This document shows positions 17,686-20,766 of a stretch of DNA of 23,365 nt, piece by piece (positions within the stretch are counted from its first letter, which is position 1; every line of letters starts with the position of its first letter). Below the pieces are notes generated by a model. The model saw nothing but the letters and a program-made list of their open reading frames with translations, searched no databases and was not told the DNA's origin. The DNA is from a virus, in the IMG/VR virus record IMGVR_UViG_3300005581_000140, positions 1 through 23,365 of that record; one strand, 5' to 3'. A program made the position numbers and the translations under genes.

Positions 17686-19464
17686 CTAGCCGTCGCAAGC
17701 GCTGCACGAAGGATCCATAGCCTTTACGGCTATATCACCACGAAGCACAGACTCTGTTCGCATATAGTACAGCGTCTTGATTCCTTGGTTCCACGCCTCC
17801 ATATGTACCTGATTGATCCACTTAGGGGTAGCCTCAGTAGGGAACGCAAGGTTCAATGATACAGACTGATCTATGTACTGCTGTCGGATCCCCGCTTGGT
17901 AGATTAGGTCCAGCTGATTGATTTCCTTAAAGGTCTTGTAGACCTCCTTTACTAGAACTACGTCCATCATAGGGTCAGCCTCATTGCTTTGCATCAGCTT
18001 CCCCTTCTGGTAAATCCATCCGTCAAGCTCACCTATGTTCTGAACAGATCCTTCGTCGGCGAGTATCTGGTCCCAGGTCTCCTTGTTGTTGATGCCTATC
18101 TTACGCAGAACCCGCTCTAAGGTTGGGTTCTTGCGTATGAATGTACCCTTGGCGGACTGCTCGGTAAATACGTTGGCAGCCCAAGGCTCGATGCCTGCAC
18201 TCACGTTACCGCTAAGCTTGGAGTTGGACACCGTAGGTGCTATCGCACGTAGGTGGGTGTTGCGAACACCGAAGCCACGACACCATAGAGGCTCTCCGAA
18301 CATCTTAGCCATATCGCGGCTAGCACGCTCTGATTCCATCTTGATGTGTGAGAAGATACGGCGCGTCTCGATCTGCGCCTGTAGCCCCTCAAATGGGGCT
18401 CCACGTTGCTGCAAGTAGGTGTGCCATCCGAGTACTCCCAGTCCAAGTGCCCGTCCCTTTTCAGCGGAACGAACCGAATTTTCGAAGCCCCTCATATTCT
18501 TGGCTTTCTGGATGAACTCCTCTAGTACGCCGTCCAAGAAGAACGTGGAGTAGTATACAACGTCTGTGTCCTTCCACTCGTCATACTTGGCGAGGTTTAG
18601 TGAAGATAAACAGCAAACAAAGCTGTGGGACTCGTCGGTGTATAGGGTAATCTCAGAGCAGATGTTGGTCATAAATACCTTAAGTCCGTTGTGCTTGTAC
18701 ATCTCGGGGTTCTGCTTGTTGACGTTGCCTCGGTACATAATGTACGGCTGGCCTGTGGCCTTGCGCTTCTGCAGTACTTTAGACCAGCGACGGCGTGACT
18801 CATCATCGCCGTCCTCTAGCTTCCGCATAAACTTATCGGAGACAATAACTGACTGGTTTAGGTTAAGACACTGGCGGTTTACGTCGCCCTTTGGCTCGCG
18901 GATTTCAATCCACTCCCAAAAGTCTCCGTGCTCTATGCTTAGGTTCACCGATGCAGCACCCCTGCGTACGTTGCCCTGTGAGGTGGCGAGTATCGTTGAG
19001 TCGTATATCTTACAGAAGGGGACCACACCATCGGTAGTCCCATTGCTGTTGGAGATAGGTGACCCTGCAGGACGTAGCATATTAAGGCCGATGCCTACGC
19101 CTCCGCCGTGCTTGGCAAGAAGCATAGTCTCTAGGTTCTTCATCCCGATGTCGTGGATGCTGTCGCCGATGTCAACGCCAAAGCAAGAGATTGGAAGCCC
19201 ACGATCTGTTCCCATATTGGCAAGCACTGGTGTGGCAAGGCCAAGCCAGTTGTTCCATATGTATCCGTAGAACTTGCTGGCAAGCTCGGGTCGATTTAGG
19301 CGGTATGCTGCCGCCTTAGCGACCCGTAGGTACGCATCCTTAGGCTTCTCGTCGTTGATGAGGTAGCCACGTGATATGGTCTTCACGTACTCCTCTGTGT
19401 TTCCCCATTCGGGGAAGTCAACTCCGACTTCCCACCCTAGGCTCTCTGCAAAATTCTTAGACAT
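17686..19464 (-). CDS. nrdA: Class I ribonucleoside-diphosphate reductase, large subunit
   Basis: It reduces ribonucleotides to deoxyribonucleotides for phage DNA synthesis, together with NrdB upstream. Numbering is from the ATG at 19464 (592 aa); a TTG two codons earlier is less likely. Active-site residues are present. C94 (GLPISCFGVD) and C284 (SFVCCLSS) form the redox pair. N267, C269 and E271 form the N-x-C-x-E site with the thiyl cysteine. Y566-Y567 (TLYYMRT) are the radical-transfer pair. C587-S-A-C590 is the mobile C-terminal thiol pair recharged by thioredoxin or glutaredoxin. At 592 residues it is much shorter than E. coli NrdA (761). It begins directly at the ten-strand barrel region and so lacks the N-terminal ATP-cone, predicting loss of dATP feedback, as in many phage enzymes. 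It overlaps the DnaA-like gene by 8 bp and is last in the minus-strand operon. Confidence 0.96.
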   Translation of the reverse strand: MSKNFAESLGWEVGVDFPEWGNTEEYVKTISRGYLINDEKPKDAYLRVAKAAAYRLNRPELASKFYGYIWNNWLGLATPVLANMGTDRGLPISCFGVDIGDSIHDIGMKNLETMLLAKHGGGVGIGLNMLRPAGSPISNSNGTTDGVVPFCKIYDSTILATSQGNVRRGAASVNLSIEHGDFWEWIEIREPKGDVNRQCLNLNQSVIVSDKFMRKLEDGDDESRRRWSKVLQKRKATGQPYIMYRGNVNKQNPEMYKHNGLKVFMTNICSEITLYTDESHSFVCCLSSLNLAKYDEWKDTDVVYYSTFFLDGVLEEFIQKAKNMRGFENSVRSAEKGRALGLGVLGWHTYLQQRGAPFEGLQAQIETRRIFSHIKMESERASRDMAKMFGEPLWCRGFGVRNTHLRAIAPTVSNSKLSGNVSAGIEPWAANVFTEQSAKGTFIRKNPTLERVLRKIGINNKETWDQILADEGSVQNIGELDGWIYQKGKLMQSNEADPMMDVVLVKEVYKTFKEINQLDLIYQAGIRQQYIDQSVSLNLAFPTEATPKWINQVHMEAWNQGIKTLYYMRTESVLRGDIAVKAMDPSCSACDG

Positions 19465-19765
19465 TTTCAATTTTTGATTCTATGTTAAACTTCATCTTAC
19501 TATAACGATTTCGATATAATGCGTTTGTATCTAGCTCACGTCTTACTGCCTTTGTGGTGGCTATCACTGTGGAGTGGTCTCTATTTACTAGTCTGCCAAT
19601 CTGCGTGGTACTCATTGATGAGTGCTCTCTCATAAGCTGAGTAAACACCTGACGTGCCTCACGTACGTAGGATATACGAGTCTTGTTACGTATATGGGAA
19701 ATGCTAAGACCATACTCATTTCTTACCTCGTTAAAAACGATGGATTTGATTGTATTGTTGTCCAT
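19457..19765 (-). CDS. Stand-alone DnaA domain IV-like DNA-binding protein, 102 aa
   Basis: Residues about 31-77 match the helix-turn-helix domain IV of the replication initiator DnaA: YVREARQVFTQLMREHSSMS, then TTQIGRLVNRDHSTVIATTK. The R62-D63-H64-S65-T66-V67 block equals the DnaA signature (RDHTTV/RDHSTV) whose residues read the DnaA box, and E-A-R37-Q38 matches the start of the recognition region. The AAA+ ATPase and other DnaA domains are absent, so it can bind DNA but not open an origin by itself. It lies 11 bp after nrdB and overlaps nrdA by 8 bp, so all three genes should be co-expressed. Possible roles are repressor or activator of the nrd operon, competitor of host DnaA, or phage origin recognition. 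No TTATNCACA-type DnaA box was seen in the intergenic stretches of this window. Confidence 0.85.
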   Translation of the reverse strand: MDNNTIKSIVFNEVRNEYGLSISHIRNKTRISYVREARQVFTQLMREHSSMSTTQIGRLVNRDHSTVIATTKAVRRELDTNALYRNRYSKMKFNIESKIENV

Positions 19766-19776
19766 AAATTTAATTC

Positions 19777-20766
19777 TTACCAGATGTTTTCAAAGTCTTC
19801 TCCCTCGTTGGCCTTCGAATAGTCGGTAGGACGGATAGAGAAAAAGTCAGTATGGGTATGGCCACCAGTGAGATGGTAGAACCAATCAAGCTGCGAAGCC
19901 TTCGACTCATCATACTCAAAGATACCATCGTATCCCAACTCCCGCAACTTTTCGTTGCCTCTTTTTTTAATAAACTCTTTTAGGTCCGAAGCCCTTAGGT
20001 TCTCGAGGTCTCCCATCTCAAACATCTTATCGATAAAGTTTATCTCCATATCAACAGCTACCCTAGCAGCCTCCTCAATCTTTTCCTTTACGCCAGCTCG
20101 GATGTACGGATCCTCTTCACACATATGGTTGAACAGGATGCATCCCATCTTGGAGTGGAGCGACTCATCCCTTACGGACCACTTCATCTGTTGACCGATT
20201 CCCTTCAGCAGGTTACGCATCTGGAAGGAGTAAAGAACAGCAAAGGAAGAGTAGAGCGCCATACCTTCGGCGAAGGCAGAGAAGACCGCTATAGAGCGGG
20301 CGACGTCCTGACGTGCCTTAGGGTCTATCTTAAGCATCTTGTGGTTGTAATCAGCCTTAGTGTCTACTAGGTTTTCAAACCTAGCGACCGTTGAGGGCTC
20401 GCGAAGGAACGCCTCAAAGTCCTCAAGTCCTAACGTCTCGTTGAGGTAGCTGTAGGCTGTGGCGTGGATGGTCTCCTGTGATCCGAACATCATAGCCATC
20501 TGCTTGATCTCGTGCTTAGGGAACCACTTGGTAACCATACCAGTCCAGTAGTCTGCAACAGCAGTCTCTGTCTGGGCGAAGCCTAGCAGGATGTTGCCTA
20601 CGAGGTTCTTCTCGCTAGGGGTTAGGTTCTCCCTAAAGTCCTTGACATCGTTCTGCATAGATATCTCTGTGTGCAGCCAAAACGCTTGGGCCTGCTTGAG
20701 CCAACCCTCGGTATAGTATATTGGATATTCGAAAGGTTTGAAAGGAATGCGCTCGTCAAATAGCAT
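19777..20766 (-). CDS. nrdB: Class I ribonucleoside-diphosphate reductase, small (radical) subunit
   Basis: This is the ferritin-like subunit that makes and stores the radical used by NrdA. The di-metal ligands are E67 (QTETAV), E98 and H101 (SQETIHATAY), E167 (FAEGMALY), and E201 and H204 (RDESLH). Tyr105 is at the radical-tyrosine spacing (E-x2-H-x3-Y), so a Tyr-type enzyme is expected. At 329 aa it is of usual length. The C-terminus, DFENIW, is the acidic and aromatic tail that docks on the large subunit. Radical formation in this class needs oxygen, which argues for an oxic host niche. It starts at an ATG 29 bp after a terminator hairpin, with no clear -7 box between, so its transcription probably relies on read-through or an unrecognised promoter. 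Unusually, nrdB precedes nrdA with a DnaA-like gene between. Confidence 0.96.
   Translation of the reverse strand: MLFDERIPFKPFEYPIYYTEGWLKQAQAFWLHTEISMQNDVKDFRENLTPSEKNLVGNILLGFAQTETAVADYWTGMVTKWFPKHEIKQMAMMFGSQETIHATAYSYLNETLGLEDFEAFLREPSTVARFENLVDTKADYNHKMLKIDPKARQDVARSIAVFSAFAEGMALYSSFAVLYSFQMRNLLKGIGQQMKWSVRDESLHSKMGCILFNHMCEEDPYIRAGVKEKIEEAARVAVDMEINFIDKMFEMGDLENLRASDLKEFIKKRGNEKLRELGYDGIFEYDESKASQLDWFYHLTGGHTHTDFFSIRPTDYSKANEGEDFENIW

Follow-up and report, generated by a model that had tools for sequence, protein, structure and literature searches.

Organization of the nrd cassette

The window is an entire IMG/VR record (23,365 bases), classed as a fragment. Its minus strand carries a small gene, D4, between the genes for the two subunits of a class I ribonucleotide reductase (RNR), in the order nrdB, D4, nrdA (Table 1). 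The stop codon of nrdB and the start of D4 are separated by 11 bp (19766‒19776), and the start codon of nrdA sits within the last eight bases of D4, ATGTCTAA. The overlap between D4 and nrdA is also short in the relatives, where it is the same or similar, and translational coupling through the 8-bp overlap is possible. The 102-residue reading frame, its strand and its spacing to both neighbours are as the initial annotation had given them from the sequence.

NrdA of the window is short, and Pfam assigns it only the lgN and lgC domains; no ATP-cone match was obtained from Pfam in this protein. Upstream of the nrd genes are a RusA-like resolvase gene and two glycosyltransferase-like genes, and two very long late ORFs lie on the plus strand. 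Judging from the form of the promoter, a BT4734-like primase-helicase and the nearest RNR relatives, the host of the uncultured phage group with D4 is probably a member of the Bacteroidota.

Table 1 Features of the window, in window coordinates
Feature	Position	Strand	Basis
Very long late ORF, 1637 aa	2824‒7737	+	Match to PHROG virion structural protein
Very long late ORF, 2271 aa	10194‒17009	+	
nrdA, class I ribonucleotide reductase large subunit, 592 aa	17686‒19464	-	Pfam PF02867 Ribonuc_red_lgC, E = 9.8e-92
D4/nrdA overlap, 8 bp, ATGTCTAA	19457‒19464	-	Read from sequence
D4, 102-aa stand-alone DnaA domain IV (Bac_DnaA_C) protein	19457‒19765	-	Pfam PF08299, E = 1.8e-14; PDB profile matches; AlphaFold2 model; residue map
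nrdB, class I ribonucleotide reductase small subunit, 329 aa	19777‒20766	-	Pfam PF00268 Ribonuc_red_sm, E = 2.9e-57
Leader stem-loop GGGCCAC(CGAGT)GTGGCCC, followed by T-rich run (20794‒20787); candidate regulatory site	20795‒20813	-	RNA fold, -13.9 kcal/mol, z -2.39
-7-like promoter element TATCTTCG, TTG 21 nt upstream (20856‒20854)	20825‒20832	-	Sequence; Bacteroidota consensus TAnnTTTG
RusA-like resolvase and two glycosyltransferase-like genes	22811‒23341; 21246‒22738	-	

D4 is a DnaA domain IV without the ATPase

Residues 10‒73 of D4 match the Pfam family Bac_DnaA_C with 53.9 bits, above the curated cutoff of 31.5. Since the sole other Pfam match is HTH_38, below its cutoff, D4 lacks the ATPase. 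The full-length DnaA models of NCBIfam align to D4 over their last ~90 positions only and score far under their cutoffs (TIGR00362, 48.8 bits against 343.9), so that D4 consists of domain IV only, with no AAA+ ATPase domain III. Every match in a PDB profile search with D4 was a DnaA. The AlphaFold2 model of D4 (pLDDT 91.6, pTM 0.84) has the domain IV fold and superposes on the DNA-bound DnaA domain of M. tuberculosis (3pvp; TM-scores 0.84/0.90) and on E. coli domain IV bound to its box (1j1v; 0.76/0.83). The profile search and the superposition both bear out the initial annotation, which had read D4 as a DnaA domain IV devoid of ATPase.

E. coli DnaA reads its box with R399 in the minor groove and with the helix of residues 434‒451 in the major groove (PMC5742627). 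Alignment to 1j1v places R30, R38 and Q39 of D4 at R399, R407 and Q408 of E. coli DnaA, and R62-D63-H64-S65-T66 at R432‒T436, with T435 replaced by S65. R30, R38, Q39, R62, D63, H64 and T66 are invariant in an alignment of nine D4 sequences, in which the T435 position is Ser or Ala. Among the base-contact residues, R30, D63 and H64 are kept, and D4 departs from E. coli DnaA by R405 to Glu, T435 to Ser, H439 to Ala and K443 to Ala. Its fold and contact residues indicate that D4 very probably binds DNA.

D4 recurs in an insertion slot between nrdB and nrdA

Among 89 distinct phage nrd loci, the slot separating nrdB from nrdA is filled by a DnaA domain IV protein in 21, with precise junctions, so the gene order noted in the initial annotation is a recurrent one. 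A search for relatives of D4 returned 19 contigs (48‒100% identity), all of which have the nrdB-D4-nrdA order; the copy in L002 is identical to that of the window. Since the same position is kept in 19 contigs and dN/dS is mostly 0.11‒0.23, D4 is not a chance ORF. When the search was started from nrdA, the closest RNR relatives also had a D4-like protein in the slot. The exception is L100, which has cleanly lost D4 and has nrdB and nrdA just a few bases apart. The divergent occupants in L095, L099, L102, L108 and L282 each exceed the Bac_DnaA_C cutoff.

Slots without D4 measure 3‒14 nt or are filled by a MazG-like, GIY-YIG or collagen-like gene or by an unknown one. The junction of nrdB and nrdA serves as an insertion slot whose cargo varies. 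Cargo genes (collagen-like, GIY-YIG/NUMOD3 endonuclease and MazG-like pyrophosphohydrolase) are located at L104 3731‒5001, L110 792‒1502, L126 4677‒5001 and L094 4356‒5001, and L094 has an additional endonuclease-like gene beside D4. D4 was not found in the examined stretches of the named phages with the nearest RNR (Flavobacterium phage immuto, Cellulophaga phage phi14:2 and Flavobacterium phage MaF61). The best 80 matches in bacterial genome contigs are all full-length DnaA-sized ORFs without nrd neighbours and include no prophage or host copy of D4.

D4 moves with the cassette and alone

While dN/dS of D4 is mostly 0.11‒0.23, that of nrdA and nrdB is 0.01‒0.07, and D4 is therefore constrained by purifying selection, yet changes faster than its neighbours. 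The D4 proteins from the main RNR clade cluster together (96/90). The L102 protein joins a phage D4 that is unlinked (97/89), and that of L108 is a long branch. A common origin for every slot D4 (AU test on D4, p = 0.19) was not rejected, and neither was a single D4-bearing RNR clade (RNR, p = 0.0975).

G004, the genome behind L006, resembles G018/G020 in its structural genes, ERF, exonuclease and origin repeats. Its nrdB, D4 and nrdA are nearer to those of G011, G007 and G012 (nrdA, 92% versus 84% identity; D4, 49‒58% versus 39% to G018/G020), and outside the RNR cassette the flanks revert to G018/G020 affinity. In L013, a segment with the end of nrdB and D4 resembles L015/L012, and the remainder resembles L096. 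These mosaics show that D4 moves both with the cassette and alone. The initial annotation had described D4 as locked into RNR expression; a lasting link with RNR stands, but the wording is too strong since L100 has lost D4 and L013 has exchanged it without most of nrdA and nrdB.

DnaA boxes and candidate origins

The canonical DnaA box, of which TTATCCACA is an example, was searched as the pattern TTATNCACA with the reversed pattern as a control. Across 25 records, TTATNCACA was not enriched, with 25 matches versus 21 for the reversed pattern. In the near-complete genomes, 13 boxes were observed against a permutation median of 30, again without enrichment. This deficit is suggestive of avoidance when compared with the permutations, but avoidance is not claimed because the reversed pattern is nearly as rare (16 matches). 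The boxes are not clustered in the phage genomes, and none was found near nrdB except in L018, which has a match 218 bp upstream.

G004 and G020 contain 4‒5 direct repeats of 20 bp in the non-coding region that separates their divergent arms, and G018 has the same repeat motif. After the repeats of G004 and G020 comes a conserved stretch, AT-rich and GC-rich, that ends in CCCAGAsGTATGG. The G004 repeats read TTATCTxGG, in which TTATC is common to the DnaA box. In G007, G011 and G012, by contrast, the repeat unit is ~26 bp long and occurs about 4.5 times. We consider these direct-repeat arrays candidate phage origins. In relatives of the window phage, iteron-like arrays with a 20-bp or ~26-bp period were located at L163 14805‒14890, L171 11439‒11529, L168 12516‒12629, L178 12935‒13052 and L174 14635‒14751.

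The type of repeat does not track the type of D4. Since the G004 repeats are those of G018/G020 while its D4 has affinity to G007, G011 and G012, the arrangement argues against D4 as an origin-specific initiator, and D4 as the reader of the origin repeats was set aside as the preferred reading because the two types are discordant. With its cassette nearer to one lineage and its origin repeats to another, G004 also suggests that D4 works with different origins. The suggestion in the initial annotation that D4 marks the phage origin is not supported if canonical DnaA boxes are meant, since the genome scan gave box numbers at or below chance, and the candidate origin repeats do not follow the D4 type.

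A terminator-like leader upstream of nrdB

The sigma-factor consensus of Bacteroidota is TTTG/TAnnTTTG (PMC7366714), and D4 phages have the closely similar TTG-N20/21-TAnnTTCG upstream of nrdB. Most D4 loci have this promoter element, and so do four relatives without D4. In most D4 loci, a GC hairpin directly follows the TAnnTTCG promoter and lies between it and nrdB. A hairpin with a T-run upstream of nrdB was found in 20 of 21 D4 loci versus 5 of 68 D4-less loci; the five are L100, which has lost D4, and four loci with unrelated hairpins. The D4-less L107, L112, L131 and L134 share the promoter and lack the hairpin insert, so that CGCAnCCC joins TTTAACC directly. L094 is a D4 locus with neither a hairpin nor a promoter match upstream of nrdB.

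The co-occurrence of D4 and the leader hairpin is a new, suggestive observation. The association was not significant in paired tests and corresponds to 2‒3 changes on the tree, and the link is only suggestive because so few independent changes underlie it. A G-U pair is found in most of the hairpin stems, as would be expected if RNA pairing, and not a DNA palindrome, were under selection, but the counts are no higher than in shuffled sequences. Compensatory evolution was not detected in the hairpin, where no pair has changed on both sides, and Rfam gave no match in the window. Since similar terminators are present elsewhere in these genomes and no pair covaries, the leader element may be an attenuator, an operator or a plain terminator. 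The proposal in the initial annotation that D4 feeds back on nrd transcription is thus plausible, given that the leader hairpin co-occurs with D4, but this association draws on few evolutionary events.

Possible function of D4

D4 has lasted in the RNR cassette and functions in phages with different origins, which suggests a target that either accompanies the cassette or is found in the host. We tentatively favor a role of D4 in reading DNA to regulate the RNR cassette that encodes it, possibly through the nrdB leader, while giving this reading somewhat less than an even chance. D4, presumably derived from DnaA domain IV, would be a free-standing, sequence-specific binder of double-stranded DNA, and it would be co-expressed with the phage RNR. 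It would bind near the nrdB promoter and leader, at a putative site there, and its rising level would adjust transcription of the cassette in one direction or the other. The complete domain IV fold, the base-contact residues, the slot kept in 21 of 89 loci and the co-occurrence with the hairpin together suggest such regulation. Full-length DnaA of E. coli is both a repressor and an activator of nrdAB (PMC8203912), which makes autoregulation by D4 reasonable as an analogy, not as evidence. Against regulation of the cassette, the hairpin may simply terminate transcription of the upstream gene, a canonical box lies near nrdB in L018 only, L100 has the hairpin without D4, and L094 has D4 without the hairpin. 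A two-part RNR switch, in which an ATPase-free DnaA domain IV autoregulator reads the terminator-like leader and the whole cassette is mobile between phages, is a more specific proposal that we regard as rather doubtful.

If D4 does control RNR, a DnaA has been cut down to its DNA-reading domain and wired to the dNTP supply without control by ATP. This would echo in a phage the link between DnaA and nrdAB of the host, and it would give a testable function to the very common, uncharacterised stand-alone DnaA C-terminal domains of phages.

We rank three other readings below regulation of the cassette: competition with host DnaA, then neutral cargo of the slot, and lastly phage initiation. As a competitor, the ATPase-free D4 would occupy host DnaA boxes at oriC or at the dnaA or nrd promoters and would block or redirect host DnaA, turning replication and the flow of dNTPs to the advantage of the phage; its position in the RNR operon would then serve early co-expression. 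We consider this reading as a whole unlikely, though it is the foremost of the three. The kept equivalents of R399, D433 and H434 would suit it, the fast divergence of D4 and its swapping between lineages fit adaptation to hosts, and the phage genomes show no enrichment of canonical boxes. However, the rarity of the reversed pattern leaves box avoidance unestablished, and the major-groove side of the recognition helix is partly changed at H439 and K443.

Slightly less likely still, D4 may be accessory cargo in a permissive insertion slot, functionally unrelated to RNR, with the hairpin as the terminator of the upstream gene. The slots of relatives that hold MazG-like, GIY-YIG or collagen-like genes or nothing are consistent with this idea, as are the unrelated hairpins upstream of nrdB in four D4-less loci and the homing endonucleases known between phage nrd genes (PMC3653736). 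The purifying selection on D4, its long retention with exact junctions and its co-transfer with the cassette argue against mere cargo. It is improbable that D4 recognises the phage origin and helps to load the phage primase-helicase: other phage D4 proteins neighbour DnaB-like helicases, primosomal/DnaD-like proteins and RecE/YqaJ/ERF/Sak, that of G023 lies beside ERF, PD-(D/E)XK exonuclease and SSB-like genes, and the candidate origins have 4‒5 direct repeats with the TTATC of the DnaA box in G004, but the 20-bp repeats of G004 go with the less similar D4 of G018/G020 and not with that of the ~26-bp genomes, the slot gene was lost in L100, G024 has no D4 detectable by the profile used, and canonical boxes are not clustered.

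Comparison with known systems

D4 shares with DnaA domain IV (PF08299; 1j1v, 3pvp, 1l8q) the fold, the helix-turn-helix, the R399/R407/Q408 equivalents and the RDH(S/T)T signature. Unlike DnaA, it has no domains I‒III and therefore no ATPase, oligomerisation or helicase loading. The DnaA control of nrdAB in E. coli (PMC8203912) likewise associates a DnaA-type DNA reader with a class I RNR; there, full-length, ATP-switched DnaA of the host acts at DnaA boxes, whereas D4 is ATPase-free and phage-encoded, and no canonical boxes were found for it. Genes between phage nrdA and nrdB, such as the mobE homing endonucleases (PMC3653736), represent the same concept of an insertion site, but these occupants are nucleases and D4 is not. 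That survey mentions no DnaA-type occupant, and "DnaA" is absent from its text. No earlier description of a DnaA C-terminal protein between nrdB and nrdA was found in the open-licence papers searched.

Stand-alone DnaA C-terminal proteins are already known to be abundant in phages, and the embedding in the RNR cassette is what is new here. Those in many BFVD entries of uncultured Caudovirales and in PHROG 27829 and 5617 have the same isolated domain and fold as D4, whose own PHROG matches are weak (E = 0.007‒0.07). Unlike D4, the stand-alone proteins that we fetched lie away from nrd genes, often with replication or recombination genes, which hints at a role of the wider family in replication. 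At about 29 unlinked phage D4 loci, the neighbouring genes encode, among others, DnaB-like helicases, primosomal proteins, annealing proteins and RecE/YqaJ exonucleases, and DnaB_C was found in 4 of 87 cases near these loci and in 2 of 78 far from them. In G023, which has a collagen-like gene in the nrd slot, the DnaA domain IV protein has 155 residues (L191 2266‒2733, minus strand). G022, which has a D4 in the slot, encodes a second, weak DnaA domain IV-like protein (L187 7070‒7363, minus strand; E = 0.0013), the gene of which overlaps an ERF-like gene.
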